Assembly (NCBI GenBank): GCA_004335835.1
Contig: RWJK01001250.1
Span: 38,248-102,247, forward strand
Origin: Scenedesmus sp. ARA3
Lineage: Eukaryota; Chlorophyta; Chlorophyceae; Sphaeropleales; Scenedesmaceae
Length of the DNA stretch: 64,000 bases
Direction of reading: 5' to 3'
Part shown: one piece after another, positions 31,440 through 64,000 of the stretch
How positions within the stretch are numbered: the first letter of the stretch is position 1
Layout: each line of letters starts with the position of its first letter
The notes under the pieces: generated by a model
Databases searched by the model: none
What the model was told of the DNA's origin: nothing
Seen by the model: only the letters and a program-made list of their open reading frames with translations
Translations under genes and position numbers: made by a program

Positions 31440-32560
31440 AACGGGCTGACAGCAGCCTGCTGCTGCTGCTGCTGGCCCTGCTGCTGCATTGCACATACAT
31501 GCAGCCAGCTGCGACACGCTGCATGGATTGATCAAGCAAAGAAACCCTCCGTTGCTGGCACATCCTCTGCTTCATGGGGCATGAACCCGAAGCTGGTGAG
31601 GCACTGCCTCCCGCTCCCGACAATTGGGCTTGCCCAATTGTGCTGTGGTAGCGAGCCAGCAGGATTCCGTCCCCCCTTGTAACAAAAAAAAACCGAAGTC
31701 AATACCTCAGCAGCGCTGACACAGCAGTACCTGCCTCAAGCACCCCTTCAGCACGAGGCAGCTCCAGCAGCGCATTTTCTGAATGGGCTGACAGCAGCCT
31801 GCTGCTGCTGCTGCTGCCGCTGCTGCTGCCGCTGCTGGCCCTGCTGCTGCTTTGGCACTATGCACCCAAGCGCCGCACACCAGAACAATGCATCATCATG
31901 CAAAGAAGCCATCCGTTGCTGGCACATCTTCCTCCCCCTGAGGCCTGAACCCTAGGTCATCAATCCGCAGCGCTGACACAGTGCTGCCTGCCTGCAGCAC
32001 CCCTTCAGCACGTGCCACCTCCAGCAGCGCATTGGCTGAACTGACAGACAGCAGCCTGCTGCTGCTGCTGGCCCTGCTGCTGCTGGTGCACTCAATGCAT
32101 CCAGTTGTCACTTATAACACAACAGCATTCATCATCATGCAAAGAAGCCCTCCGTTGCTGGCACATCCCCCTCCCCCTGAGGCATAAATCCTAAGTCATT
32201 TATCAGTAAGCGCTGACACAGTGCCGCCTGCCTCAAGCACGCCCTCAGCATGGGGCAGCTCCAGAAGCGCATTGGCTGAACCGGCTGACAGCAGCCTGCT
32301 GCTGCTGCTGCTGGTCTCAGTGCTGCTGCATTGCACATATATGCAGCCAGCTGCCACGCGCTGCATGGTTTGATCACGCAAAGAAGCCCTCTGTTGGCGG
32401 CACATCCTCTGCTCCTTGGGGCATACACCCTAGGTCGTCAATCAGCAGCGCTGACACAATTGAGCCTGCCTCAAGCACGCCCTCAGCGCGTGGCAGCTCC
32501 AGCGGCGCATTGGCTGAGCGAGCTGACAGCAGCCGGCTGCTGCTGCGGCTGCGTCGCCAC
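31440..32560 (-). repeat. About five decayed tandem copies of the MoeA terminal exon
   Basis: Beyond the MoeA stop (32663) the last-exon sequence recurs at about 32375-32545, 32135-32300, 31895-32060, 31700-31810 and, as a trace, 31440-31560. The period is about 240 bp. The first reads SRLLSARSANAPLELPRAEG to PTEGFFA and a stop; 31895-32060 also keeps a full reading. The others are broken by stops or indels. Each unit also carries 3' flank and a CAG/CTG run. Confidence 0.9.
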
Positions 32561-32662: not shown

Positions 32663-37890
<5,228 letters not shown>

Positions 37891-45289: not shown

Positions 45290-45844
45290 ATGGCGGCGCT
45301 GCTGCCATGGGATGCGCTGTTCCTGGCTGGCTTTGCAGTCAGCGGCTACAGGACAGTTGGGCGCTGGCTCAAGTACACCGACGACACAGCAAAGGCGCAG
45401 TCAGGTGCGCAGCAGCAGCTTGTGCATTAGGATGTTGTGCAGCTGCTTCCATAGTGCGTTAGAAGGTCGCAGCAACGTGCTGGGTTGAAAAGATATCAGG
45501 GCGGCTAGGCACTATGAAGTGATATCAAGCAGCATTGCAGCGGGGTGCCATGGGCTGCTGCCATAGGTGCTGCAGGCGGCAGGGCACCCAGCAACAGACA
45601 GCACAAAGTCACAGATGGCTTTTTTGTGGTGTTCAAGTAATGTGCGTTCTGGCTGCTGGATCAGCGTACTGAGCACAGCAGTAGGCGGCAAGCAGCAGAT
45701 GGTTGTCCTGCAGCCAATGATGGCGCAAAGTCACTCCGTTGCAGCTCACGCTGCCTGTCGCGGCTGCTTGCAAGGATACGAACAATTGCGTCAGCACCAA
45801 GCACAATGTCTGCAACCACCACTACTAGCACATTTGCCGTCCAC

Positions 45845-45875
<31 letters not shown>

Positions 45876-45990
45876 CTGCTGCTGTAGATGGCGCCTACAT
45901 GGAGGATTTCAAGGAGTTCCTGGCTGAGGCAGCAGCAGCTGCAAACTATTCACCAGCACTGACACTGACATACCTTGTATCTCTGCTGCC

Positions 45991-46047
<57 letters not shown>

Positions 46048-46145
46048 GCAGATGGCGCCTACACGGAGGGTTTCAAGGAGTTCCTGGCTGAGGCAGCAGC
46101 AGCTGCAAACTACCCACCAACACTGACACTGACATACCTTGTATC

Positions 46146-46183
<38 letters not shown>

Positions 46184-46853
46184 AGATGGCGCCTACATGG
46201 AGGGCTTCAAAGAGTTCCTGGCTGAGGCAGCAGCAGCAGGCGAGAGGGCCAAGCCAAGCCCTGGTGCTGGCGCTGACGCAAGCGGGCAGGGCCACCTGTG
46301 GCGGGACTGGAACGGGCTGAAGACAAAGCAGCGCATCGCCCTGCTGGGAGAGATGCAGAAGGTGCGGATTAGAGATGCAAAAGGTATTTCAACAGCATGT
46401 AGGCAGCGCGCTGCACTGCTGCAAGAGGTGGTGCAGCAGATGCATGGCGTTGTGGTTTAGCGGCGGCGGTTTGGGGTTGAGGCGGTCAGGTCTGGTGCTG
46501 GGCCGGTGGGCAAAGCCGCTTGTGGCGTGACTGGAATGGCCTGAAGACGAAGCAGCGCATCACCCTGCTGGGAGAGATGCAGAAGGTGCGTGGCAATGCG
46601 TAATCTTGGCCGGTCAAGCGGCGGGTTTAGCTGTGAGTGTGAGTTGGGTTGTGGCTTGAAGCGTGTCACAGCAACGCGGCAACTGCTGGGAAAGTTGTAG
46701 AAGGCGCGGGGAACTGGGCCGAGGCGTTTGGCTTGGTGACTTCATGCAACAACACTAAACGAAACCTGTGGATGTTGCGCTGCTGCAGGTGCCGGAGTGG
46801 ACGGGCCAGGACGAGATGCTCTGCCTGGTGACCTATCAATTCTGCTGCTTCCG

Positions 46854-46889
<36 letters not shown>

Positions 46890-49800
46890 GCTGCTGCAGG
46901 TGCTTGAGTGGACGGGCCAGGACGAGGCGTTCCGCCTGGTGAAGAAGCACCGGGGGCAGCCCTGGTCTGCGCTGCCGCATGCAGCCAAGAAGGCGCTGCT
47001 TGCCGCGGCAGACAAGATGGACTGGAGCTTCCTGGCAGAGATGGAGGAGGTATGCATGGTATTTTTGAGCTACTTTTTAATTTTGTGTTATTTGTGCATG
47101 TTACTACGTGCAGCAGCCCAAAAGGTGCTGCTGGCTTCGGCAGACAAGATGGACTGGAGCTTCCTGGCCAAGATGGAGGGGGTGCACAGAGCTGGCTGTT
47201 TTGTTGTTTCTTTGTGTTCAGTTTGTCAAAACATTAGGCTGTTGTAAACAGGTGTGGTTGAGTTTGTTGTCACTTTTGCAGTCCGCATGCTGTGTGCTCT
47301 AGGTCTTAACCGACCTGAAGTCACTGGTCGACAAAGTGGATAAGGCCATGGTTTCCTGAGGTTTTCGTGGGATTCATCTGCATACCATCTCTGTTTGTAG
47401 CACCTTGCGCCCCTGCATCCTTCTCTGCCCTTCAGATTACCCTTGCAATAGGGCTTGGATATGCTCATGCAGCGCACCTGTGGCAGGTCATGGAGCAAGT
47501 ACCTCGCGCCTCAAACTAGCAACGGTCAGTGATCGCAGATGTCTTTCTGATCTTTCTCTGTTCAACCGCCTTGAAATTTGCAGGAGGGTGCAGAGATTGC
47601 CCACGCGGCGCACCTGTGGCAGGTCAACGAGCCTGTCCCTGCGCTGTCAGCCGAGCCGGCACTGGCAGCTGCGCTGCTGGATGAGAGTGAGGGCCTGAAG
47701 GGTATGGTTGACTCCGCTGACCTGGCGGTCAACGCGCTGTTGACCGGTCAACAGGAGGCCGTCATCGCCGGGCTGGCCNNNNNNNNNNNNNNNNNNNNNN
47801 NNNNNNNNNNNNNNNNNNNNNNNNNNNNGCTGTTGACCGGTCAACAGGAGGCCGTCATCGCCGGGCTGGCCCCTGCGGAGAAGCTGCAGGTGGGCTGGCT
47901 GAATAAAATTTTCAACAGCATTGAGTGCTTGAACAGCTGCATAGCATACAGGGTATGCACGCCTGCGGGTGTGCGCTGCAAAACTGTGTGTCTGTGTGTG
48001 GGAAGTGGGTCATGGTTTGTGATGCCTGCTGGATGAGAGAGAGGGCCTGAAGGGCATGGTTGACTCAGCTGACCTAGCGGTCAACGCGCTGTTGACCGGT
48101 CAACAGGAGGCCGTCATTGCCGGCCTGGCCCCTGCGGAGAAGCTGCAGGTAGGCTGGCTGAATCATTGTTTCCTTCATCAGCATTGAGTATTTGAACAGC
48201 TGCATAGCATACAGGGTATGCACGCCTGGGGGTGTGCGCTGCAAAATTGTATGTCTGTGTTTGTAAAGTGGTTTATGATTTGTGTGGCCTGCTGAATGAG
48301 AGTGAGGGCCTGAAGGGCATGGTTGACTCCGCTGACCTGGCGGTCAACGCGCTGTTTGACCGGCGACCAGGAGGCCGTCATCGCCGGCCTGGTCCCTGCG
48401 GAAAAGCTGCAGGTGGGCTGGCTGCACATTGTTTTCTTCATTGGCATGCAGTGATTTGAAACAGCCTGCATAGCACACAGGGTATGCACGCCTGGGGATG
48501 TGCTCTGCAAAACTGTGTGTCTGTGTGGAGAGTGGGTTATGGTTTGTGTGGCTTGCTGGATGAGAGTGAGGGCCTGAAGGGCATGGTTGACTCAGCTGAC
48601 CTGGCGGTCAACGCGCTGTTGACCGGTCAACAGGAGGCCGTCATCGCCGGGCTGGCCCCTGCGGAGAAGTTGCAGGTGGGCTGTCACACCTTGCGCGGTG
48701 CAGTCGCCTGCTGTCTGCATGTCATCGTGCATGCTGCCCGCCCTGTGTGCTGCTGTGTGCATGTTGCAGCCAGGCCGGCGAGTCCAGGCGCGGGGTGGAC
48801 ATGCTCAGCCCAGCAGCGCGCCTTAGAAGTCTGCATGAGCTGCTGACAGTTTCTCGCACATGCTGCCTGTTTTGTGTGTGTTGGGTTGATGCAGGTTGGC
48901 GAGTCCCGGCGCAAGGTGGACTTGCTGAGGGAGGCAGCGCAGGGCGGCCTGGGGCTGGGCAGTGGCGGCAAGGCAGCACGTGGGCAGCAGGTGAGAACAG
49001 CACAGTGCAGTGTGATCATCCTTTTAGGTATATGTTGTGTCGCTGGATGTGTAACAGTCGGCGCATAGCAGGCAGGACTGGCAGCTGCAGGCAGGGGTCA
49101 CTGCGACAATCACACAGGATGGTGTGGCAGCTGATATGGTGGCTTCAACTTGAAATCCATGTGCAGCACACATGCCGTGGAAATGTTCTTGCCAGGCAGT
49201 GCACCAAACCTGCCTGTGCACCTCTGCAACTGCTGCTGTCCCATCTTTCCGAATGCCGACAGTCTGCCTTTCAATCTGCAACTGCTGTTGCTTTATTCCA
49301 TGTTTAACCCTGTAGCTGCTGGAGCTGCTGCATTGCACTCATTCCATGTGCAGCTCACATATCATGTATGAGTTATCTCAGGGTGGCAGAACAGTGCTCA
49401 CTATCCGTCTGTGCATCTCTGCATCTGCTGCTGCTCTGTCTCGTCTCACACTCCTGCAGCTGCTGGAGCTGCTGCGCGGCATCGCACTGGTTCCTGCAAG
49501 GCACTAGATTTGCTAGGAGCTGCTGGCACACCTCTTGCACTTAATTGTTGCAAGGCAGTGCTAACATTCTGCCCTTCCATCTTCATCCGCTCCCTTGTCA
49601 TCCCACGTTTGAATTTTGCAGCTGCTGGAGCTGCTGCGCGGCATCGCACTGGTTCCTGCAAGCAGCGCGGACCAGGAGGCCAAGGCCGCTGCTGTTGCAG
49701 CACTAGATGCAGCAGCAGACGAGGCAGTGGCACCCCTCAAGGAGCAGCACGCAACCGCAGCTGCTGCTGCAGCTGCTGCTGCACGCAGCCAGGCACTTGC

Positions 49801-52528
49801 TGCTACACTGGGAGGGCAGATCCGCTTCGCACCTGGCAAGCCACCCCTGTCTGCTGCTGCTGCAGCGGCGGTCGTTGCTGTAGCATGTGATGAGTCAGCA
49901 GCAGCTATGGCTGCGCTAAGCAGCGCAGCAGGCCTTGCAGGAGGGCTTGCTGCGAAGCGTGCTGCTGCAGAGCAGCTCATGGGGCTGGGCAGTATCACGG
50001 AGAGCACTGCTGCTGCGCTGGCTGCAGTGATGGGCGAGAATGAGGCTGCAGCAGAGGTGCTGGGCCAGCTGAGCGAGTCGGCTGAGAAGCTGCAGGTGCG
50101 CATGTGTGTTATGTGTGTATGTGTGTTTGTTTGTTGACCTGCGGCATGTGAGTGGTGCACCTGTACTGTTTGTGCAGCCCGGACTTGGTGCTGGTCAATG
50201 CTGTGTGATTTGGCACTTGCAGCTTGCAGCTGCTGTTGTTGGACAGCTGCAAGTGGGGCGTGCAGCAACCTGTGTGCTGCTGTGTGTGTGTCCTGCAAGG
50301 TCTCCTGAGGCATTCAGATGTATATCCGCAAATACACACCCACTGCTGTCAGCTGTTACTTAATGTTTCTGCTTCCTACGATGCAGCACATAACACACGT
50401 ATCTGGCTGACAATACTTCTGTGCCTGCGTTGATGTTGACCATCTCTTGACCAACAGGAGGCGTCCATCAAGTTTGCAGAGCTTAAGCTGAAGGCAGAGG
50501 CCGCAGCAGCAAAGCAGCAGCCAGCAGACGCAGCAGCAGACGCCGAAGCGGATGCAGCAGCAGCAGACGCTGACTCAGCAGCGGCATCTGCTGTCGAGGA
50601 GGCGTTGACCGCGGTCAAAGCAGCAGCAAAGCAGCTTCCCAGCTTGCAGGAAAGTCCTGCAGCAGCAGAGGAGGAGCAGGAGGGTGTGGAGGCGCCTGCT
50701 GCTGTTACAGTTGACTCAGTCAAAGAGGCTCTGCTGGCTGAGGTGGCAGAGAGGGTGGCAGTTGTGGAGGAGAGGACAAAGCAGCAGCAGGAGGCGGCTC
50801 TGCAGGTGTGGTGTGGCTGCAGGATGGCTGCTGCAACACCTGGTTGTTTGCTGTCATGCTGTCAGATTCTTTGCTGTGCTTGTACGTGTCTTAGCTTTCC
50901 CCTGTAGAGTATACCCAGGCTGTTGCAGGTGATGGTGTTCGAACATGCTGTCAAACTGCAGCTGCTGATATGTTTCCGCCACTTCAATTCTGTGCAGAAT
51001 GCCCGCTCTCGCGAGCGCATGAGTGCTCTGCTCACCAAGGCAAAGAAGCTGCAGCAGCCCGCCGCAGTAGCAGCAGCAGCAGCACCCGCAGAGGGCAGCA
51101 CTGATGACTCAGCAGAGCAGCAGCAGCAGCAGCAGCCTGAGGAGCCTGCCATGTCAGCAGCAGAGAGGCTTGCTGTTGCAGAGGAGTTCCTGAAGCAGCT
51201 GGGGGCGCGGCCGCTGGCTGCTGCGCTGGGCGATTTGAACAAGCTCATGGAGGCACAGGCTGGCCCTGACAGCACGCCGCAGGTGGGTGGTACATGAAAT
51301 AAACTAGCATACTGATATCTGGGTTTACACGTGTTGGCTGGCTGCTGCGCTGGGCGATTTGAACAAGCTCATGGAGGCATAGGCAGGGCCCAATAGGACG
51401 CCACAGGTGGGTTGTGAAATCTCACTTATTTGAGCAGTCCCGTATGCTTTTTATTTTGATCCCCTGGCTGCTGCCCTTGGGGCCACAACAACATCATACC
51501 ATGCACTGCAGGAGTGCAGCAGTGCTGCCCTCTTGTACACCTACACCCCACCTACAAACCGAGGTTCTGTGTGGGTCGTTGCTGTTTGTTGCCTTGCCTT
51601 GAGCAGGCTGCCGCAGCCAGCCTGGCCGTGCGCATCACCCTCGAGGAGGCCAGCACTGCTGCTCTCACATCCACCACAACATCATCCTGCTCTGTTCTCA
51701 ATTGCTGGTTAACTGGCTGCTTCAGCCAGCCTGGCGGCAGGCATCACCCTGGAGCTTAGCAACGCGTCCCTCAGCAAGCTGGGCCAGCTGCTGTCGGAGA
51801 TCCAGCTGGCGGCCACCTCACCCTGCGCAGGCCGCTGCCGCTGCCGCTGCCGCTGCCGCTGCCGCTGCTGCTGCTGCCGCTGCCGCTGCCACAAGCCGCT
51901 GCCGCTAGCCTTGTGTCAGGCCCTTGATAAGCCCAGCAACGTGCCCCACAAACATTGGCCAACATATCCCGCCGTTGTTCCTTCTGCCCTTTTTGTAGGC
52001 TGCTGCAGCCAGCCTGGCGGCGGGTATCACCCTGGAGGAGGCCAGCAGTGCAACTCTCAGCAAGCTGGGCCAGCTGCTGTCAGAGATCCAGCTGGCGGAT
52101 GCAGTAATCGGGCTGGAGATGGGACCCGGGGTTATGCCGGCACTCGACAAGCTGGCGACCTACATGGCGGCCAAGCAGGCAGAGGCAGCGTGAGTACTGT
52201 TTTTGCGTGCTTTGCTGTGAGTGTGCTGTGTTACTGGCCTGTGCAGGGTGCACTTGAAGTCCACATCAGCCTTTCATACGTTGGCAAATGAGCGTGGTCA
52301 CAGCAGTGGATATGGAATTGCGGCAATTCTACTCAACTGCAGAAGCTGTGCCTTTACCCCTCAAACAAGCTCTCAAATGCCTGAAGCGGTGTATGTGAAT
52401 GTGCAGCACATGCTGCCAGTGCTGATGCCCGTGCTTTATGTGCCACGTCACACTTGCTTATGGACAAAGCTTGGAGCATCTAGTGCCACTATCCGACTTT
52501 AGAGAAGCAGGCTGAAGTAGACTGAGGC

Positions 52529-52568
<40 letters not shown>

Positions 52569-55500
52569 GCTTGGCTCTCTGTTGCAGTGCTGCTGCCGAG
52601 GAGGGCTCTGATGACGTGGCCAGCACCCCCAAGGGCGCCATCGACAAGTGCATGGAGCAGGTGCGCTAAAGCCGGTAACGCAGCGCCGTTAACGCAGCGC
52701 TGTTAACGCGGCCAAGCTTCTTCGCTTGCAGCAGCCCAAACCGAACCTTTTTGATGTGCTGAATAGGGGAAGCTGTATGTTGATATGAAGTGTGCCATGG
52801 CGGCCTGGTAGTGCTGGGCCTGAGCAGTCCAAAAATCGCCTGTTTCCTAACATGCTGTTACTTTCTTGTCGTAACACAGGTGGAGTCACTGCGCCGTGAC
52901 GGCCTGGTGGTGCTGGGCCTGAGCAATCATGTCAAATATCTAAAACGCCGCATTATGTTTCTTGCCTGTTACTTTTTCTACTAACGCAGGTGGAGGCGCT
53001 GCGCCGTGACGGCCTGGTGGTGTTGGGCCTGAGCCATCCCAAACAACATAACTGAACCACTGCATGTTACTTTCTTGTTACTTTCTCGTCATAACGCAGG
53101 TGGAGGCGCTGCGCCGTGACGGCCTGTTGGTGCTGGGGCTGAGCATTCGCATCAAATATCTAGAACACCACATCATGCTCCTTTCCTGTTACTTCTTGTA
53201 ATAACGCAGGTGGAGGCGCTGCGCCGTGACGGCCTGGTGGTGCTGGGCCTGAGCAGTGCGCAGTACCGGCAGCTGGGCATGCTGCGGGAGGCCACAGCCA
53301 ACCTGAGCACATCACTGGACGCGCTGAGATACGACAGGTGCGGCTGCTATGCGAACACCTTGCCTGAACAGTGTGTTTGAGTTTTGAGCCGGATTCGGCA
53401 GTTTCGTTTCAGCAGCTGGCAGCTGGGCATGCTGCAGGAGGCCACCGCCAACCCGAGCACGTCACTGGACGCGCTGACATACGCCAGGTGCGGCTGCTAT
53501 GCGAACACCTTGCCTGAACAGTGTGTTTGAGTTTTGAGCTGGATTCGGCAGGTTCGTTTCAGCAGCTGGCAGCTGGGCATGCTGCAGGAGGCCACCGCCA
53601 ACCCGAGCACGTCACTGGACGCGCTGACATACGCCAGGTGCATCTGCTGTTGCATGGGTGTTTGAACGTTTGAAGGCGCCATGTCTCCTGCAGCAGGTTG
53701 CTGCTACTGCAAACATACGCAGTCATCCTCACGGACAGATGGTGTCCAAACCAACGGATGTATTGTCTGCCATTAGCGCAGGTGTGTCTCCCCGCTGAAG
53801 GACGTGTCTGCGCAGCTGGGCCATTGTTGCTGCTCTTCAAACCCAGCTGGCTGCCACACAAAATCATCAGGTGCATTTGATATTTGCTGTCATGTTGCTG
53901 CAGGTGTGTGTCTGCGCTGAAGGATGTGGCAGGGCAGCTGGGCCCCATTGGTGCGGCCATCCAGACCAAGCTGGCAGCCACTGAGGACGAGGCCCTGAGG
54001 CAGCTGATGAGCGAGCAGAAGGCCCTGGCTGTGGACCTATTCGGCAAGCTGCAGGTGTGTTTTGTGGTATGTCAGGGAGTGGGCTTGTTGGGCGGCTGTC
54101 TGAAGTGTGAAGCATGTGATGAGGCAGCTGATGAGCGAGCAGAAGGCCCTGGCTGTGGACCTGTTCGGCAAGCTGCAGGTGTGCATTGTCACATTTTTCG
54201 GTTGGTTGGTTAATTGGGTCGTTGGTTGGCTGGGCGTTTAGGGTTGTGCAGCCACTGAGGACGAGGCGCTGAGGCAGCTGATGAGCGAGCAGAAGGCCCT
54301 GGCTGTGGACCTGTGTGGCAAGCTGCAGGTGTGTTGTGGGTGTGCTGTTTTAAGGTTGTTTAGGCGACATGCACAGCGCTGTTTTGAGACATGGTGTAGC
54401 AGAAGGCGCTGGCTGTGGATCTGTTTGGCAAGCTGCTGGTGTGCGTTGTCAGGTTTTGGTTGGTTGGCTGTGTGGGGTATGAGTTCTGCTGCCACTGATC
54501 ACCAGGCACTGAGGCAGCTGATGAGCGAGCAGAAGGTCCTGGCTGTGGATCTGTTTGGCAAGCTGCAGGTGTGTGTTGGCAGGTTTTGGTTGGTTGGTTG
54601 ATTGGGTGGTTGGTTGGGTGTTTAGGGTTGCGCAACCATTGAGGACGAGGCGGTGAAGCAGCTCGTGAGCGAGCAGAAGGCCCTGGCTGTGGACCTGTTT
54701 GGCAAGCTGCAGGTGTGTTATATATGGGTGTGCTGTTTCAAGGTTGTTTAGACGGCATGCAAAACAGCATGACATAGCAGACGGCGCTGGCTGTGGACCT
54801 GTTTGGCAAGCTGCAGGTGAGTTTTGTGGTATATCAGGCGGTTGGCTTGTTGGCTGGCTGTTTGAAGTTTGATGCATGTGCTGCGGCAGCTGATGAGCGA
54901 GCACAAGGCCCTGTATGTTGACCTGTTTGGCAAGCTGCAGGTGTGTGCTGGCAGGGTTTGATTGGTTGGTTAATTGGGTGATTGGTTGGTTGTTTAGGGT
55001 TGCGCAGCCACTGAGCACCAGGCCCTGAGGCAGCTCATGAGCGAGCAGAAGGCCCTGGCCGCCGACCTGTTCGGCAAGCTGCAGGTGTGTATTCTGGGAT
55101 TTTGGTTGGTTGGTTAATTGGATGGTTGGTTGGGTGTTTAGGGTTGCGTGGCCATTGAGGGCGAGGACCTGAGGCAGCTCATGAGTGAGCAGAAGGCGCT
55201 GGCTGTGGACCTGTTCGGCAAGCTGCAGGTGTGGCGAACAGCCAATTAGGCGGTGGGCTGAGCTTTGTATACAGAGGCTGTTGTGTCAGGACTGCGGCAT
55301 ACGGTCCTTATGGTACTGCTGTACTTGTGAGTGAGTTGCTGCACACGTCGGGAGCCGATGCTCACATCATCTGGGCCGTGGATACTGAGCACTGCTGCTG
55401 CTGCTGCTGCTGCTGCTCCTGCTGCTGGTGCTGCTCCTGCTGCTGCTGCTGCTGCCAGGCGTTCCTGTCCTTTGAGGAGAGCATCAGGGGCCCACTCAAG

Positions 55501-55712
55501 AAGAGCCTGAGGGAGCTCAACAGCCTGGCCGGTGAGTTGTTATGACATGTTACATAACAGTGTGATGCTTGTCATTACTGTCATGCTATATATCATACTG
55601 TGATGATGCCCTGCTTTGCACGTTTCACTTGCATGGCTCACGTCGCAACGGGCATTCAGTGCAGCAATTACATCCACGCATTTGCTGCAGCATTTCTTGC
55701 TGATCCTGCATG

Positions 55713-55745
<33 letters not shown>

Positions 55746-57508
55746 AGGTGGCATTGGTGCGCCCCGCACACCATCCGGCTGTGCTGCAGCGGCCCTCAAG
55801 CTGGACATGGCAGCAGAGGAGGCACAAAAGCTGCAGGTGTGTACTTCAGGTTTTGTGTGTTCATGTCCAGGGTTTAGTGATATGCTATAACAGGGTTGAG
55901 GTCTAGATGTGCTGCAGCTGCCCTCAAGCTGGACATTGCAGCAGAGGAGGCACAGAAGCTGCAGGTGCGTGTATTTGCCATCCAGGTCCAGAGTTGTTTG
56001 CGTTGCTCTGGCAGGGTTTGTGATCGAATGTGCTTGTGCCTGGGGTCAGCCCTTAGTCACAAGCACATTTGATTACAAACCCTGTGTATCACAGCTCATG
56101 CAACAAGTTAGCTGTTTGTTGGGGACTCCTAAGGCTATCGCCGGAGCTGGCTGGCTGTCCCTCCCTGCTGCTCGCAGCAAAGCTGTTCCTACATATAATA
56201 TTTTGCAACTCTATACGCGTAACTCGACAATCTACCCAACTCTTCATGTCTATCATTGCTGCTTTGCATGGTGCTGCAGGACCTGCTGGCTGAGCTGGCT
56301 GCCTCCAAGGGCGAGGCTGCCTTCTACTCCTGACCCTTTACGTTTGTGTTACATAACAACTGGCCTTGACTGATACATCAAATTTGTTATCCATGCGGTT
56401 TCTGTCTCCGCAGGGCCTGCTGGCTGAGCTGGCTGCCTCCAACGGTGAGGCAGCTGTCTTACCCCCAAAGTGTTATACTCCAAGAGATGTTCTAAAATGA
56501 CTTACGAAGTCTGTTTTTTCAATTTATGCAGGACCTGCTGGCTGAGCTGGCTGCCTCTAAGGGCGAGGCTGCAGAGGACGCTGCTGCTGCTCCTGCTGCT
56601 CCTGCTCCCGACAGCGTGGCAGCAACACAGAAGATTGTAGACACCCTGCAGGGCACAGTGGAGGCCCTACAGGCCTCTCTGTCGAGCCTGTCAGCTCATG
56701 TGGCGCTGCGGGCACGCGCATTGGACCCTGCGGTTGCTGCTGCTGCTGCTGCGGCTGGCCTGGAGGGGGCGGACCTGGACCTGAACACACTGGACAACAT
56801 GGAGCCAGAGTGTGAGTGAAAGTGGGGTTTAGGGCTGTTATGACAAGGGTTTTGGTGTGCTGCTGTGATGGGGTTTAGGCCTGACTTGGTGGAGTGGCGG
56901 CTGGCCTGGAGGGGGCAGACCTGGACTTGAACACACTGGACAACATGGAGCCAGAGCGTGAGTGGGTTTTTGGGTTTTGTGACAAGGGTTTTGGTGTGCT
57001 GTTGTGGCAGGGTTTAGGGCTGACTGGTGCGGCGGCTGCTGCTGGCCTGGAGGGGGCAGACCTGGACCTGAACACACTGGACAACATGGAGCCAGAGCGT
57101 GAGTGGAGTGGAAGTGGGGTTATAGCGCTTATGTTTGAGGATTTAGTGTGTGTTGCTGGCAGGGTTCAGGTTGTGACATGTACCATGGCACTGTGGAGGC
57201 CCTGCAGGCCTCTCTGTCGAGCCTGTCAGCTCATGTAACGCTGCGGGCACGCGCATTAGACCCTGCGGTGGCTGCTGCGGCTGCTGCGGCTGGCCTGGAG
57301 GGGGCGGACCTGGACCTGAACACCCTGAATAGCATGCAGCCAGAGCGTGAGTATTGCTTGGGGTTTGGTTACTTTTGCTCGAGGGTTTGGAGTGTTTTGC
57401 GAGCAGATTCAAGTGTTGACATGAGTCGCGGAACTGTTGAGGCGCTGCAGGCCTCGCTGTCTAGCCTGCCAGCTCATGTGGCGCTGCGGGCACGCGCATT
57501 GGACCCCG

Positions 57509-57541
<33 letters not shown>

Positions 57542-60500
57542 GCCTGGAGGGGGCAGAGTTGGACCTGAACACTCTGGACAACATGGAGCCAGAGCGTGAG
57601 TGGGGTTTTGGGGGGTTTAGAGCTTTGGCTTGATGGGTTGGAGTGTTTCGCTGGTAGGTTTGATTGTTGACATGAGTCACAGAACTGTTCAGGCCCTACA
57701 GGCCTCTCTGTCTAGCTTGTCAGCTCATGTGGCGCTGCGCACACGCGCATTGGACCCCGCGGTTGCCGCTGCTGCTGCGGCTGCTGCTGGAGGGGGCAGA
57801 CCTGGACCTGAACACACTGGACAACATGGAGCTGGAGCGTGAGTGGGAGTGGGGTTTAGGGGTTTTATGACATGGGTTTTAGTGTGCTGTTGTGGCAGGG
57901 TTTAGGGCTGACTTGGTGGAGTGGCGGCTGGCCTGGAAGGTGCTCACCTGCACCCAAACACACTAAATTGCATGTAGCCAGAGCGTGAGTGGGGTTATGA
58001 CTGGTTTTGGTGCTTAGGATCAAGGCTTGAGTGTGCTGCTCTGCCAGGGGTTTGACTGTTGCCAGGTGCCTTCTGGGGTCAGGCAAGCACCCTGGCCCCC
58101 CTAGGGTTGAGGGTTTTGGCTGTTTGCTGCACGCCTGTCCACCGCAAAGCTTCGTAGCTCGCTGCTGCTTCCCTCAAGCACCGAGCATTGGGATACTTTG
58201 CGAGAGCACACCTGTTGTATCTGGCACGCTTGGGCCTCACAATAGTGAGGCATGCCGAGCTACTGATCAGCAGCACATCCGGTTGTTAAACCTATGCTTA
58301 CATATTGTCAAATGTTCAGTCCACTACAGGAAAAGCATTTGTCTTGTTTGGCAGGCAGTAACTCATGTGGTGAGAGAATGGGAGATGCTCGCTTAGATGC
58401 ATTGTAGAACCAGCTTCATCCAGCAACAAGCAACATCCCAGTTGCCTGGGACATTGACTGTCACTGGATCCAGCTTGGCTACAATGCATCCACGCAGGCA
58501 TTGACCATACTGTCACCATATGAGGTGCCCGCAGTCTTGCAAAGTGCATCATGCACTTGTCTGGTTTGGCAGGCAGCAGCTTATGTGGTGAAAGGATGGG
58601 ACATGCCCATTTCAATGCATTGTATTTGAGCTGGAGCCAGCAACAATCAACATCCCAGCTGCCTGGGACATTGACTGTCTCTGGATCCAGCTTGGCTACA
58701 ATGCATCCACGCAGGCATTCACCATACTATTACCATATGAGGTGCTCTGTGCTGGCAGCCATTGTGCAGCACAGCTCTGAGCAGCGCGTGTGCTCTGATG
58801 GCCAGCAAGCAGCAGCCGAGACGCTGTAACAACACGCAGCTGTAGTGCAGCAGTTGTGTGTTGAGGCTGGCAGCAACCGTCAAGCCTTGCAGCGTGCCAG
58901 TGGCACAGCATAGGACATTGTGAGGTATGCCATGAGTTGAACCATTGCTGTGTTGCACATACACAAACTAAATCCGGCCCATCTCTTGACAAGAGGAAGC
59001 TTGTATTCCCCACTGCGTATCTGCGCAGCGGTGCGTATCAGCCCCCTCTTGTCAAAGAACATGGCCAGGTCAATTTGTATGTATGGCGCAGCAATGTTGT
59101 GACTTGAGCACCTGGCAGGCCCTGCGCAGTGTTGAGCTGCGACCAGATGGCGTGGCACTTCAGAGATGCAAACGTGCAAACGTGTGATGTATAATTGCTC
59201 CCTTGCGAGCAAGGGGTCTCCTGGGAAATGCTGTCCTCATCACAGCAACACAGAGGTCTTTGGTTGTGCTCTCAATCGCTTGTTGCTCAAAAGTGCACCC
59301 ACTACCAGTCACTATATTACAGTGGCACCATTGTTGACAGATGTTTGACCATTGTTTGACCCATTGGACTAACTGCCTGCAGTGGACCACCCCTGTACAT
59401 CCTGGGGGCAACAGAGGAAGAGCTGCAAGCAGAGTGGGAGGCTAAAGGCTTCGAGCAATGTTGCAAAACATTGCTAGTCAAACATGTCGCTGTGATTTGA
59501 CTGTCGCTGCTCTTGCTGCTTCTGCTGTTGTTTGACCGTTGACCTGCAGTGGACCACCCCCTGTACATCCTGGGAGCAACAGAGGAAGAGCTGCAGGCAG
59601 AGTGGGAGGCTAAAGGCTTCGAGCAAGTCGCCCGGGGCCGCGTCGCAACCATCCTCATCGCAACCGCAACAGCAGACGGCGCACACACGCACCCAGCAGA
59701 CGCAGCAAAAGCCGGCAGCGCAGCAGGCGGCAGCAGCAGCAGCAGCGGCAGCGACAGCGGCTCGGTGCCCCGTGTGGCAGTTGCTGTGCCGGGTCTGCCT
59801 AGTGGCAAGAGTGTGCTGCAGCTGACTGCGGAGAGGATTCTGAGGCTGCAGCAGCTGGCAGCAGCAGCGACGTTTGGCCAGAACGCACCGGTATCCCGGC
59901 ATGTGCAGTGGTGAGTTGAGATGGCAGACTGGCTGGATGTGTGTCTGCGTTATGTAGCAATCTGTTTTTATTTAGGTCGCAACCGTTGTATTCTTAGCAA
60001 TGAAGCTGTGGGAGCAGCACCCGGCAGCTGCCACTACGTGCGTGGTGTGCCCAGTGGCAAGAGTGTGCTGCAGCTGACTGCGGAGAGGATCCTGCGGCTG
60101 CAGCAGCTGGCGGCAGCTGCCACATTTGGCCAGAACGCGCCTGTTCTCGGCACGTGCAGTGGTGATGGTGCCGGCTGGTTGCATGGCTAAGTCACGCATG
60201 GCTGGATGCACGGCAGAGCCACGCCAGTAAGGCACCTTTTGCTGTGTTTGAGTTTGCATCGAGAACGCACTCTTGTGCACAGCACAGCAGGGCGAGCGAC
60301 ACTCGGCAAGTACTCATCGTATCAGTGCCGCCATGTATCCCTGGTGCCTGCAGGTACATCATGCCGTCACCTGCCACACATCACAAGCTGGCAGCTACAC
60401 TCATGCTCCAGCACTTTGTGCATGTTTCTCGTCACCAATTAATCTGTAAATGTTCTCCCACGCAGGTACATCATGACATCACCAGCCACTCATGACAAGC

Positions 60501-63500
60501 TGGCAGCCACCCTCAAAGAGCAAGCCTTCTTCGGGCTGAGCCAGCACTGTCTCTCTAGTCATTTGCTGGTTGTTCATGTTGCGTGCAGGTACATCATGAA
60601 ATCACCTGCCACGCAAAACAAGCTGGCAGCCACCCTCAAAAGAGCAGGCTTATGTGCCCTAGTTCCAAAGGCTCAAACACATCGTGCAATGCTTCCCTAT
60701 GACATTGATCTAGTTATTGTGACTCCACCCCACACGCAGGTACATCATGACATCACCTGCCACTCACGACAAGCTGGCAGCCACCGTCAAAGAGCAGGCC
60801 TTCTTCGGGCTCAGCCAACGCTGTCTCTCTGATCATTTGCTGGTTGTTCATGTTGCCCGCAGGTACATCATGACCTCTCCTGTCACGCACGACAAGCTGG
60901 CAGCCACGCTCAAGGAGCAGGCCTATCTGCCGTTGTTCAAATGGCTCAAAGACCTTGTGCATGTTTTGTGACAGTTATTACATTCTTGGCATGCCACATC
61001 CCGTGCAGGTACATCATGACCTCTCCTGCCACGCATGACAAGCTGGCAGCCACCCTCATGTTCAATCACATTGTGCATTCTCATTTGTCACCAACTAATC
61101 TGTGAATTGTGTCTCTCCCACGCAGGTACATCATGACATCCCCTGCCACTCATGACAAGCTGGCAGCCACCCTGAGGGAGCAGGCCTTCTTCGGGCTCAG
61201 CCAGCAGCAGGTGACCCTGTTCTGCTGCAAGGCAGCGCCACCGGCCTTTGCTGGCGAGCCGCTGCGCGCGCTGCAGCTGGGGCCAAGCACGCTGACACGC
61301 GGCACGCCCGGTGAGTAGGTCTTTTACATGTTTTGCTGTTTATTGAGCAAACGTGATACATTCTGTGTGTGCTTTTGACTGCGTTCGCTGGCGAGCCGCT
61401 GCGTGCACTGCAGCTGGGGCCAAGCACATTGACGCGCGGCACGCCCGGTGAGCAAGCTGTAATCATACAGTTGTTGTCTTGTACATAGAAAGACTTTGAC
61501 TGCAATCGCTGGCGAGCCGCTGCGTGCGCTGCAGCTGGGACCGAGCACACCGACACACGTCACGCCCGGTGAGCAAACTGTAACTTTGCATTGGCTCACT
61601 TGTAATGCGTGCTGTTGAGGCGCAGTGGCATGGTTCCACACATGCTATCATACAATTCCCTTGTGCATGTTCCACCGCTGCTGTTGTGTACAGGCTCTGG
61701 CGAGGTGTTTGCGGAGCTCAAGCGCAGCGGCGTGCTGCGCGCCATGCGCGGGCGCGGCATTCGCCACGTGGAGGTGAACGCTGTTGACGACAACGTTCTG
61801 GCACGGCCCGCTGACCCGCTGCTGATTGGCTTCGCAATGGACAAGGGCCTCGACGCGGCAGCAAAGGTGAGGCAACATAACACAACTTCATGCAACAGCC
61901 CACAGCAGCTTCAAGCGCCTCATGCCTGCCCCCTGGCTCTATCCCAACCTTTGCTGTTTCTGCACACTGCTGTATCCGCAGGTGGTGGAGCCATCGTCTG
62001 TGTCAGCAGCCTACGCGGCCGCCATGCCAGCAGCAGCAGACAGCAACGATGAGCAGCAAAACCCCGAGCTGCAGAACCAAGGGGAGGCTCTCAACGAGTC
62101 GATCTCCTTCCTGGCCCCTGCAATCGGCAGCTACTACTTCTCATTCACTGCGCTGGACCGCCTTGCAGCATTCTATGATGCCAACCCACTGGCCATGTAC
62201 CGCATGGCGCCGGTAGGAAAGCTGCCCAGCAAGGCGCCACCGCCAGCAATGACTGTGAACCTGCCACCAAATGCCACACAGGCGCAGCGCATGCAGGTGC
62301 GTGCAGCGTGTTTGACGGCATGTGTTTTGCTGCAGTTGCCTGCATTTTTTGTGTGACTGCTATGTGGCGGAGTTTGCCGCACAATTTTTTTGCCGCTGGG
62401 TCACCTATGTCAGCAGTTGGCCATGTACCGCATGGCGCCGGTAGGAAAGCTGCCCAGCAAGGCACCGCCTCCTGCAATGACGGTCAACCTGCCACTCAAC
62501 GCAACACAGGCGCAGCGCATGCAGGTAAGTTCCTCTTGTATCGCAATTTGGGTGCTTGCCTGGCTTACTGACTTGGTGTGATATACAGTTTGGCCAGCAG
62601 TGGGGCAGTCTAAGGCTTATGTTTTGGGCTGTAGGTTATTTGGGGGTCAGCAGTTGGCTATGTACCGCATGGCGCCGGTAGGAAAGCTGCCCAGCAAGGC
62701 GCCACCCCCGGCAATGACTGTGAACCTGCCGCCAAACGCAACACAGGCGCAGCGCATGCAGGTGCGTACGTTGTTGTATTTTGCTTGGTGTTGTGGTGGG
62801 TTCTATGCTTGGTTTCAGTTGTTTGCTGTCTCAATCACACTTGTGCAGCGCTGTGCGCTCCCCGCCTGGTCACACCGCAAAGCTTCGTAGCTCGCTGCTG
62901 CTTCCCTCAAGCACCGAGCATTGGGATACTTTGCGAGAGCACACCTGTTGTATCTGGCACGCTTGGGCCTCACAATAGTGAGGCATGCCGAGCTACTGAT
63001 CAGCAGCACATCTGGTTCAAATCTATAATTTGTTACTTTGTTTCTTTCTTTGTTTAGCTGGTGACAGCGTGATGCCGAACCAAAGGTTTCTCTTGTTTGA
63101 GGCTGGTGGTTTGCTAAACATCAGTTGTGCCGCATGTATCTTGTCTGCAGGCCCAGCAGGCGCTCATGGCAGCGCAGCAGGCAGCAGCAGCACATCTCTG
63201 GCTGCCGCTTTTTGAATGTTGTTGCAAATACGTATTGTTACGTTTTGATCTTTAGTTATCAAACAGGACTGTGACAGCTTGACCTCAAAAACACTCTCTC
63301 CTGCATGCATGTCTGTCAAGGCTGTTTGCTGTTCATCTCTTCAGACACACTTCTTGAACCAATTGTACACCAATGACTAACACTTGCTATTTGTTATCCG
63401 CCTTTATGCAGGCGCAGCAGGCGCTCATGGCAGCACAGCAGGCAGCAGCAGCAGCACCGCCCAAGCCCGTTGACGGCTACGTGCCCACACGCTTCATCAG

Positions 63501-63990
63501 CGACGTCTTCTGCACTGCAGCACCGGCCACACCATCCGCAGCAGGTAAGAGTGCACACAGCCGAGCAAATGGGCACAAGCTGCATGCATTGCATATGTTG
63601 ATGTTCAACTGCTCCCTTCTGCGACACACCATGCCCTGTCACGGTCGCGCTCTGCTGCTGCTGCCACCACCGCTGCTGCCACTGCAGCTGCGTCAGGTGG
63701 CCTGAGCCTGCTGTCTGGCTGCAACCTGGTCAACCTCATACCAGCTTGTCCCCTCTGCATCACAACATGCACCGACACGACCTCACTTCTCCTGCTGCTG
63801 CTGCTGCTGCTGATGCTGCTGCTGCTGCTGCAGCTGCGTCAGGTGGCCTGAGCCCGCTGTCCGGCTGCAGCCTGGCGTACCTTGGTGTTGACAGGGAGGA
63901 GGAGTTCAGCTGTGTGATGGGGGGCGGCCCTCACCTAGCGGTGCCTGAACCTGAGATTGCTGCAGGAGACCTGCTGGCACTGACAACCAG
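45290..63990 (+). CDS. Very large Ala-rich protein with C-terminal UAP-like nucleotidyltransferase fold; runs off the window
   Basis: Exons 45290-45404, 46186-46361, 46900-47049, 47584-47888 (with gap), 48895-48990, 49622-50095, 50458-50805, 50998-51282, 51999-52189, 52588-52660, 53210-53337, 53904-54054, 55459-55531, 55748-55836, 56532-56811, 59550-59910, 61126-61310, 61694-61866, 61982-62296, 63412-63544 and 63834-63990 keep phase throughout, about 1,390 residues so far. Residues 1 to ~950 are Ala/Leu/Glu-rich and unrecognised. From ~950 it follows UDP-N-acetylglucosamine pyrophosphorylase in order: ATEEELQAEWEAKGFEQVA, GLPSGKSVLQLTAERILRLQ, WYIMTSPATHDK, GIRHVEVNAVDDNVLARPAD, AKVVEPSS, then REEEFS. 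The catalytic GGQGTRLG loop is replaced by IATATADGAHTH, and the NGGLY and NAGN motifs are also altered, so a pseudoenzyme is likely. The start (MAALLPWDAL) is the first ATG of the first exon; a further upstream exon is possible. Confidence 0.75.
45888..46185 (+). repeat. Two 5'-partial copies of exon 2 of the UAP-like gene, each after a CTG tract
   Basis: The first ~55 bp of exon 2 (DGAYMEDFKEFLAEAAAA) occur at about 45888-45942 and 46051-46105, then intact at 46186. Each is preceded by a CTG run and an AG acceptor and followed by the same non-exon sequence (GCACTGACACTGACATACC). The unit is about 150 bp. Confidence 0.9.
46510..46586 (+). repeat. 3'-partial copy of exon 2 of the UAP-like gene
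   Basis: It repeats the WNGLKTKQRI.LLGEMQK end with an intact GTGCGT donor, downstream of the full exon (46186-46361). Confidence 0.85.
46789..47185 (+). repeat. Partial copies flanking exon 3 of the UAP-like gene
   Basis: A 5' copy (PEWTGQDEM, about 46789-46830) precedes exon 3 (46900-47049). A 3' copy (AAQKVLLASADKMDWSFLAK, about 47110-47182, GTGCAC donor) follows it. Confidence 0.85.
47779..47828. other. Assembly gap (50 N)
   Basis: Fifty N inside exon 4 of the large gene. The 43 bp before the gap (GCTGTTGACCGGTCAACAGG to GGGCTGGCC) are repeated exactly after it. The gap therefore hides either an unknown number of tandem copies or nothing but an overlap the assembler did not close. Confidence 0.99.
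48030..48676 (+). repeat. Three 3'-partial copies of exon 4 of the UAP-like gene
   Basis: Copies at about 48030-48148, 48295-48411 and 48555-48676 read ESEGLKGMVDSADLAVNALL to LAPAEKLQ and end in a GTGGGC or GTAGGC donor. The copy at 48295 has a frameshifting insertion at the TTGACCGGTCAA palindrome. The intervening 140-180 bp are also similar between units. Confidence 0.92.
49310..49502 (+). repeat. Two 5'-partial copies of exon 6 of the UAP-like gene
   Basis: The exon start (LLELLRGIALVPA) recurs at about 49313-49345 (decayed) and 49459-49497 (nearly exact, with GCAG acceptor), before the intact exon at 49622. Confidence 0.85.
51334..51835 (+). repeat. Partial copies between exons 8 and 9 of the UAP-like gene
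   Basis: First comes a 3' copy of exon 8 (about 51334-51408, with an internal stop and GTGGGT donor). Then come 5' copies of exon 9 (about 51606-51655 and 51722-51825, AASLA.ITLE readings). Intact exon 9 starts at 51999. A GCCGCT hexanucleotide run follows at about 51825-51900. Confidence 0.82.
52790..53160 (+). repeat. Four 5'-partial copies of exon 11 of the UAP-like gene
   Basis: The exon start (VEALRRDGLVVLGLS) occurs at about 52795-52830 (decayed), 52881-52925, 52991-53035 and 53101-53145, before the intact exon at 53210. The spacing is about 110 bp. The last three keep an ACGCAG or ACACAG acceptor. Confidence 0.92.
53405..53640 (+). repeat. Two 3'-partial copies of exon 11 of the UAP-like gene
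   Basis: Both repeat QLGMLQEATANPSTSLDALT and end in AG|GTGC donors (about 53411-53487 and 53562-53637). They are nearly identical to each other and differ from the parent at the same sites, so the second arose from the first. Confidence 0.9.
54110..55230 (+). repeat. Nine 3'-partial copies of exon 12 of the UAP-like gene
   Basis: Copies of LRQLMSEQKALAVDLFGKLQ lie at about 54113-54178, 54249-54330, 54398-54440, 54496-54569, 54633-54712, 54775-54817, 54885-54941, 55008-55085 and 55149-55230. Nearly all end in CTGCAG|GTGTG or similar. The parent is 53904-54054. Breakpoints differ between copies. Confidence 0.93.
55905..55970 (+). repeat. 3'-partial copy of exon 14 of the UAP-like gene
   Basis: It repeats ALKLD.AAEEAQKLQ and a GTGCGT donor, about 70 bp after the parent exon (55748-55836). 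Confidence 0.9.
56278..56450 (+). repeat. Two 5'-partial copies of exon 15 of the UAP-like gene
   Basis: The exon start (LLAELAAS.GEA) recurs at about 56280-56325 and 56414-56452, each after an AG acceptor, before the intact exon at 56532. Confidence 0.88.
56885..57990 (+). repeat. Six 3'-partial copies of exon 15 of the UAP-like gene
   Basis: Copies at about 56893-56960, 57028-57100, 57183-57346, 57428-57598, 57682-57840 and 57915-57987 repeat GLEGADLDLNTLDNMEPE; three reach back to GTVEALQASLSSL. Most end in GTGAGTG. The parent is 56532-56811. Confidence 0.92.
58141..58284. repeat. 144-bp dispersed repeat, copy 1
   Basis: It differs from 62874-63017 at one base only. It contains GTAGCTCG near one end and its complement CGAGCTAC near the other, and a perfect stem GCCTCAC-AATA-GTGAGGC. 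It lies in the intron between exons 15 and 16 of the large gene and does not resemble any exon. Confidence 0.95.
58341..58756. repeat. Tandem duplication of about 210 bp
   Basis: 58341-58556 and 58557-58756 share long stretches, including GGATCCAGCTTGGCTACAAT followed by GCATCCACGCAGGCATT, with scattered differences. It is not derived from an adjacent exon and lies in the same long intron (56812-59549). Confidence 0.9.
59382..59465 (+). repeat. 5'-partial copy of exon 16 of the UAP-like gene
   Basis: It repeats DHP.YILGATEEELQAEWEA (with a one-base loss) behind a CTGCAG acceptor, about 170 bp before the intact exon 59550-59910. Confidence 0.92.
60030..60170 (+). repeat. 3'-partial copy of exon 16 of the UAP-like gene
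   Basis: It repeats PSGKSVLQLTAERILRLQQL through FGQNAPV and a TG|GTGATG donor, about 130 bp after the parent. Confidence 0.92.
60352..61065 (+). repeat. Six 5'-partial copies of exon 17 of the UAP-like gene
   Basis: Copies at about 60352-60412, 60467-60550, 60589-60645, 60740-60825, 60863-60935 and 61010-61065 start at a GCAG acceptor and read YIM.SPATHDKLAATLKEQ before breaking off at different points. The intact exon is 61126-61310. Confidence 0.94.
61380..61570 (+). repeat. Two 3'-partial copies of exon 17 of the UAP-like gene
   Basis: Both repeat FAGEPLRALQLGPSTLTRGT-type sequence and CCCG|GTGAG donors (about 61385-61448 and 61505-61569), downstream of the parent. Confidence 0.92.
62418..62761 (+). 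repeat. Two 3'-partial copies of exon 19 of the UAP-like gene
   Basis: Both read LAMYRMAPVGKLPSKAPPPA to QAQRMQ and end in GTAAGT or GTGCGT donors (about 62418-62524 and 62654-62761). The parent is 61982-62296. Identity is very high, so these are recent. Confidence 0.94.
62874..63017. repeat. 144-bp dispersed repeat, copy 2
   Basis: This copy matches 58141-58284 at 143 of 144 bases, 4.7 kb away in the same orientation. It sits in the intron between exons 19 and 20 of the large gene. Confidence 0.95.
63149..63195 (+). repeat. 5'-partial copy of exon 20 of the UAP-like gene
   Basis: It repeats AQQALMAAQQAAAA with a TCTGCAG acceptor, about 220 bp before the intact exon 63412-63544. A similar 5' copy of exon 21 lies at about 63682-63730. 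Confidence 0.85.
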
Positions 63991-64000
63991 GTGGGGTTTA

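Follow-up and report, generated by a model that had tools for sequence, protein, structure and literature searches.

Results

The window is a stretch of 64,000 nucleotides from the Scenedesmus sp. ARA3 assembly (C910:38248-102247), and on its + strand, between positions 45290 and 64000, the introns of predicted genes hold diverged partial copies of neighbouring exons. A long Ala-rich gene, whose hand-stitched translation had no match in Pfam, has an intact parent exon at 53904-54054 (identified by the gene finder, as repeat family D4 and in the copy table). Nine copies of the 3' part of this exon with the donor follow at 54120-55228 on the + strand in imperfect tandem, with 85-98% identity to the parent, and one copy of its 5' part precedes it at 53782-53857 (+ strand, 78% identity). 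The gene for UDP-GlcNAc pyrophosphorylase (UAP1, PF01704) has an intact + strand exon at 61126-61310, identified by Pfam and the gene finder, with six copies of the acceptor and 5' part before it (60354-61056, + strand; copy table) and two copies of the 3' part and donor after it (61381-61568, + strand). The array at 60354-61056 contains several types of spacer, which are partly re-duplicated as units together with the copies. Another UAP1 exon, at 59550-59910, is preceded at 59383-59458 (+ strand) by a 5'-part copy with 96% identity, a 1-nt indel and a largely unrelated spacer. Two further UAP1 copies, at 62418-62524 and 62655-62761, are predicted as in-frame 108-nt mini-exons and could be genuine exons. 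Also on the + strand, six 3'-part copies at 56897-57983 follow the exon at 56532-56811, and the exon at 53210-53337 has three 5'-part copies before it (52880-53151, 92-98% identity) and two 3'-part copies after it (53418-53637). At 47829-48714 (+ strand), directly after a 50-N gap, lies a true tandem array that includes intron sequence and has a period of about 263.

A DNA-level search with the predicted exons gave 45 copies on the + strand of this region, namely 26 3'-part copies downstream of their parents, 18 5'-part copies upstream and one internal copy; no copy was full, and no edge copy lay on the wrong side. The runs after 53904-54054 (nine copies), before 61126-61310 (six) and after 56532-56811 (six) are the longest. 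The initial annotation had reported about 25 copies of each type in the large + strand gene, with no exception to this polarity and no complete copy, which is close in number and holds for 45290-64000 in the other two respects. The remainder of the window contributed 18 3'-part copies downstream, 5 5'-part copies upstream, 7 internal copies and 1 full copy. Among them are five 3'-part copies and one internal copy (22938-23936, - strand) of the exon at 24048-24354 of a carotenoid cleavage dioxygenase (CCD) gene (PF03055), and three 3'-part copies (31951-32552, - strand) of the exon at 32718-32900 of a predicted gene, the N-terminal part of which matches MoeA (PF03453). The extension of the pattern to the CCD and MoeA-matching genes is thus borne out, whereas the stretch that had been labelled SAP has no SAP match in Pfam.

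Counts were extended to 33 loci (309,718 bases, of which 22,245 are N) from the assembly, which comprises 87.3 Mb in 1567 contigs. Besides the window, these loci comprised 15 stretches of up to 10 kb from other long contigs, picked blind to the finding, four from the remainder of the window's contig, eight small helicase loci and five CCT chaperonin loci, the last selected because copies were already known there. In all, 36 loci were taken beside the window; L013 and L032-L034, which repeat the window or L029, were left out of the counts, as were the portion of L012 that overlaps the window and low-complexity matches. Exons were modelled over all loci with a custom gene finder based on a hidden Markov model. 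Retrained on sequence free of self-similarity, it recovers a strong consensus at donors (CAG/GTGNG, the slash marking the exon border) and acceptors (TGCAG/G); its models were made from the genomic sequence of this assembly, and some copies were over-called as mini-exons. Predicted exons of at least 45 nt served as parents, copies were sought within 3 kb, and a copy reaching to within 8 nt of one exon border was classed as an edge copy.

Partial copies were found for 119 of the 480 predicted exons. The 274 copies (median exon-derived length 60 nt, median identity 89%) comprise 245 edge copies, 7 full copies and 22 internal copies. Copies of the acceptor-bearing 5' part lay upstream of the parent in 108 cases and downstream in one, and copies of the 3' part lay downstream in 135 cases and upstream in one, such that 243 of 245 edge copies have the same polarity. 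The pattern is therefore confirmed as widespread in the sample, on several contigs and beyond chance, and the polarity noticed in the window recurs when copy type is scored against side elsewhere; the claim that there are no exceptions and no complete copies is slightly too strong for the sample as a whole, given the two edge copies on the other side and the 7 full copies. The parents of the full copies are all predicted exons of 51-74 nt, some of which may be copies themselves. The 15 blind-picked stretches alone gave 34 5'-part copies upstream, 34 3'-part copies downstream and 4 internal copies, from 35 of 190 exons. Exon matches within 3 kb were on the same strand in 523 cases and on the reverse strand in 8 (all exons, with no parent filter), and local self-matches were direct in 222 cases and inverted in 23 (before overlapping loci were dropped). 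No other exon separates copy and parent for 257 of the 274 copies. At least two copies were found for 69 of the 119 parents, with a maximum of ten, and these form imperfect tandem clusters.

Two independent checks were made. The first, a coding-flank test, ignored the parent call. Of 31 donor-type pairs, 29 had the coding flank on the upstream member, and of 34 acceptor-type pairs, 26 had it on the downstream member; one pair was full. With strong differences only, the counts were 27 to 2 and 22 to 6. Some discordant acceptor pairs that were retained resemble wrong-strand or low-complexity matches. For the CCT chaperonins, six-frame matches to PF00118 were collected from the whole genome and judged by eye, which required no gene model. 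In 5 of the 11 main PF00118 gene clusters, partial matches repeat part of a longer match, with five 5'-part copies upstream (four on C1492, one on C1530) and nine 3'-part copies downstream (three each on C1492 and C1032, two on C1016, one on C1184). No wrong-side copy was seen among these genome-wide matches; one composite match was resolved into two adjacent copies, and two sets that could not be classified (C1016 1-42 with 23-47, and C1184 403-450 with 432-490) were excluded from the tally.

Once copies that had been predicted as exons are set aside, a copy lies in 118 of 390 introns (about 30%). The median length of these introns is 517 nt, compared with 261.5 nt for introns without one (Mann-Whitney p = 2e-21), and the summed copies amount to about 17.8 kb of 162.9 kb of modelled intron, with overlaps between copies left in. 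The initial proposal that the copies lengthen introns thus agrees with the data as an association; the direction of cause is our inference, as longer introns also give copies more room. Among copies reaching to within 2 nt of the border, the donor GT is retained in 111 of 129 3'-part copies and the acceptor AG in 87 of 103 5'-part copies, about as overall identity predicts. The truncated edges of the copies carry no consistent splice site, and generally no strong one.

How far the similarity runs into the intron varies. Four arrays are true tandem arrays that include intron (L016, L018, L030:7741-8479 and window positions 47829-48714). In comparisons of at least 85% identity, to which a single array can contribute several times, about half end close to the splice site: 57 of 91 on the donor side reach at most 14 nt into the intron and 27 of 66 on the acceptor side at most 13 nt, and the other 34 and 39, respectively, run further. 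Identity around the splice site was profiled for 22 pairs of donor type and 10 of acceptor type, all of at least 85% identity and chosen because the match ends near the splice site and the coding flank is clear. In the donor pairs, identity is 0.86-1.00 over the final 15 exon bases, 0.73 at the variable position +4 (0.25 being expected from the consensus) and 0.50 at +6, and is near background from +7; in the acceptor pairs, it is 0.90 at -5 and at background at -6. The adjoining introns are homologous at the 0.05 level in 4 of these 32 pairs when ranked against other pairs, or in 8 of 32 against shuffled sequence. Some pairs combine 96-98% identity with dissimilar flanks, and in one the exon part is fully identical. 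A U-shaped mismatch profile or clustering of mismatches near the edges, a possible sign of conversion, was not seen in the pairs examined. Duplications confined to introns are scarce: with low-complexity matches filtered, 84 pairs have at least 85% identity, of which 6 consist of less than 5% predicted exon, and two of these six visibly copy exon-derived sequence. If tandem units of 120-240 nt fell at random, 35-50% of them would be intron-only and 26-36% edge-crossing, and there would be about 0.11-0.42 whole-exon copies per edge copy, compared with the observed 7 to 245.

The copies decay nearly neutrally, in contrast to the constrained intact exon. Changes unique to a single copy, where the parent and all other copies agree, fall at codon positions 1, 2 and 3 in 194, 183 and 279 cases (59 parents; n = 656; 387 are nonsynonymous and 269 synonymous, and 8 give stops), whereas changes unique to the intact exon fall there in 17, 18 and 91 cases. 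The synonymous share of changed codons in parent-copy pairs is 28 of 40 at 92% identity or more, 71 of 128 at 85-92% and 68 of 204 below 85%. Third positions account for 27 of 33 differences in the youngest pairs, which by our own reasoning exceeds the approximately one half to be expected; hypermutation at CpG was considered as a cause of the synonymous excess and does not account for it. In 56 copy-copy pairs with alignable spacer, the exon-derived part has diverged by 12.4% (10.0, 8.5 and 18.8% by codon position) and the spacer by 23.2%, and the exon part is the less diverged in 22 of 25 array regions, a comparison that is somewhat biased because exon parts were labelled by their similarity to the parent. 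As a separate observation, the third-position share of copy-only changes (279/656 = 0.43) lies above the neutral expectation of about 0.33-0.38, depending on the CpG rate, which points to a slight deficit of amino-acid changes in the copies.

Discussion

The initial annotation knew of no description of such a mode of intron growth, but one has been published for birds, as exon stuttering or sequence stuttering on chicken dot chromosomes (Hron et al. 2026, PMC12954441). According to that report, fragments from an exon edge with the adjacent donor or acceptor are repeated as imperfect tandems within the neighbouring intron, the coding exon stays intact and the intron is lengthened; in more than 90% of cases the source is no further than 1 base from the exon border, the median is 4 copies, and intron length polymorphism between individuals is a feature. 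The Scenedesmus copies share with these the location in the adjacent intron, the copied part at the exon border with its donor or acceptor, and the imperfect tandem clusters. The differences concern prevalence and fine structure. The avian cases are mostly on dot chromosomes (190 of 236 stuttering introns, making up 3.4% of dot introns; gerbils are mentioned with data not shown), whereas the alga has copies in 118 of 390 introns, from several contigs. The avian report expects purely intronic stuttering to be much commoner and takes most copied regions to contain intron, in contrast to the alga, where intron-only copies are rare and the similarity often stops at the splice consensus; in the alga, copy type was also counted against side. 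The Scenedesmus pattern thus falls under a phenomenon that received its name only recently, here in an organism far removed from birds, with higher prevalence and different fine structure. In the open-licence literature, PMC12954441 was the only match found for the two terms, and nothing on this pattern in algae appeared in the titles and abstract openings of the matches listed for intron expansion, green-algal intron length and Scenedesmaceae genomes. If our reading is correct, exon stuttering exists outside vertebrates and on many contigs and is not confined to the dot chromosomes of birds, and introns may grow without trace in the protein while being seeded with decoy splice sites, with consequences for gene annotation and splicing fidelity.

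Three other phenomena invite comparison; papers on them include PMC9860276 (introners), PMC3364881 (tandem exons) and PMC4974935 (intron gain). Introners are dispersed families of near-identical introns that change intron content genome-wide; the copies described here also alter intron content genome-wide, and two regions compared with the whole genome had no dispersed match except for a GCA-rich stretch. Tandem exon duplication with mutually exclusive splicing, as in Dscam, likewise places exon-derived copies in series, but those are complete exons with both splice sites, whereas 7 of our 274 copies are full and truncated edges generally have no strong splice site. Tandem duplication intron gain (PMC2891723, 2010), in which a new intron bounded by the duplicated AG/GT arises inside a former exon, similarly involves local tandem duplication of exon sequence, but the Scenedesmus copies pile up inside introns.

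What is the mechanism by which the copies arise? Their position, polarity, orientation, prevalence and near-neutral decay are matters of observation, and probably they reflect intron growth by repeated short local tandem duplications across one exon edge, with selection and later persistence of the exon part. The founding event would be a short local tandem duplication spanning one exon edge, and selection would retain events that leave one intact, correctly spliced exon. Since one intact exon is required, an extra copy that lies downstream has to be a 3' part, and one that lies upstream a 5' part. Tandem geometry with this requirement explains why the copies show this polarity, have direct orientation and sit in the adjacent intron, so the polarity is no separate evidence for a special process. 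To this extent the geometry first proposed for the window stands, but a breakpoint anywhere in the intron is not supported in that form, given how many matches end within 14 nt. A tandem origin is supported by the polarity of the edge copies, the coding-flank test, the strand bias, the lack of intervening exons, the arrays with alignable introns, the association with intron length and the small number of whole-exon copies. The exon-derived parts may then outlast the co-duplicated intron parts, the intact exon being constrained; re-copying from a constrained exon can, by our reasoning, give up to a factor of two in divergence between exon part and spacer, and the observed 12.4% and 23.2% are close to it. 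By the same reasoning, the loss of intron parts in the 32 splice-edge pairs exceeds this factor, so the sharpest pairs require gene conversion or exon-limited copying as well, and in such cases non-allelic gene conversion with the intact exon might refresh the copies. Several results weigh against this explanation: young intron-only duplications are nearly absent, although neutral tandem duplication predicts many of them, roughly as many as edge copies or more, few adjoining introns are homologous, no U-shaped profile was seen, and the third-position share in the youngest pairs is high.

An alternative that we regard as unlikely, but that several results favour, is exon-limited copying, in which a fragment running from the splice site (about +5 at the donor or -5 at the acceptor) to a random point in the exon is placed in the adjacent intron, for example through a protected pre-mRNA fragment or template switching. 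It would fit the sharp stop after +5/+6 and at -5 in pairs that end near the splice site, the short reach of 57 of 91 donor-side matches, the dissimilar flanks at 96-98% identity, the scarcity of intron-only copies and the finding that the spacers of the two searched regions have no other genomic source. It does not predict the strict polarity, however, and it is at odds with the arrays that have alignable introns and with the matches that run further (34 of 91 on the donor side, 39 of 66 on the acceptor side). That copying is tied to the splice site, omits the adjoining intron and so points to an RNA- or spliceosome-linked template instead of ordinary tandem duplication is, in our judgement, a rather doubtful proposition. 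Because exon parts are preserved where intron parts are lost, it can now be tested whether the copies are maintained by gene conversion from the intact exon or by copying linked to splicing.

It is improbable that the copies are functional alternative exons under selection. The idea looked likely from the synonymous-rich pairs at high identity, and L029:1718-1795 differs from its parent by 11 synonymous and no nonsynonymous codons, few of the copy-only changes are stops, and divergence between copies is codon-periodic. It was set aside as the copy-only changes, taken from a DNA-based pile-up, are mostly nonsynonymous; moreover, truncated edges generally have no strong splice site, frameshifting indels are present, CCT and UAP1 would have to bear repeated fragments, and examples like L029:1718-1795 came from protein similarity, which favours conserved copies.

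We also give little credence to an assembly artefact, in which unmerged contig overlaps or joined haplotypes would produce false partial duplicates. The analysis used the assembly sequence alone, and the 50-N gap at 47779-47828 is flanked by identical 43 bases, so one or more of the copies at this gap may be false. Against this reading, the counted loci contain just seven N runs shorter than 150 nt, nearly all copies lie in continuous sequence, the arrays hold up to ten diverged copies with a wide range of divergence and near-neutral decay, and the two tested regions have no second genomic locus. Chimerism of two haplotypes was rejected on finding no allelic contig for these two regions, and multi-copy arrays do not fit it. 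When the two regions were searched across the genome, one matched itself only and the other, beyond its own contig, matched only one GCA-rich stretch; with no further copies of either, transposons were dismissed as the source of the spacers. A candidate for a spliced, cDNA-like copy at L029:9129-9269 proved to be a 3'-part copy and a 5'-part copy lying side by side.

Partial copies with conserved coding content

The neutral-copy account is hard to reconcile with one partial copy in the CCT chaperonin gene at L029, a locus on contig C1492 outside the window. In this copy (L029:1718-1795), all 26 of the 26 amino acids are identical to those of the parent exon, yet 11 codons differ synonymously. 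At the same locus, a 5'-part copy (L029:9204-9269) has changed third positions in 12 of 22 codons with only 2 amino-acid differences. These examples, like those from UAP1 below, were recovered by a protein-similarity search, which favors conserved copies.

UAP1, the UDP-GlcNAc pyrophosphorylase gene in the window, has two in-frame copies of 108 nt (62418-62524 and 62655-62761) that the gene finder called as exons. Relative to the parent, the former carries 9 synonymous differences and 1 nonsynonymous difference over 36 codons, and the latter carries 7 and 0, respectively, over the same 36 codons. The two copies may be real repeated exons rather than decoys.

Other features of the window

Open frames at 58031-58396 and 62635-63057 match almost perfectly over roughly 45 residues, perhaps a dispersed repeat; they lie more than 4 kb apart, beyond the 3-kb limit of the copy counts. 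Young duplications that contain no predicted exon are few; one of them, at 58335-58745 (offset 218, 86% identity), has portions that additionally form inverted-repeat pairs. The 50-N assembly gap at 47779-47828 is flanked at both ends by the same 43 bases and is probably an unmerged contig overlap, which would therefore produce a false partial copy. CpG is depleted across the whole window (observed/expected 0.40-0.61 in 4-kb bins), and CTG/GCA runs are common.
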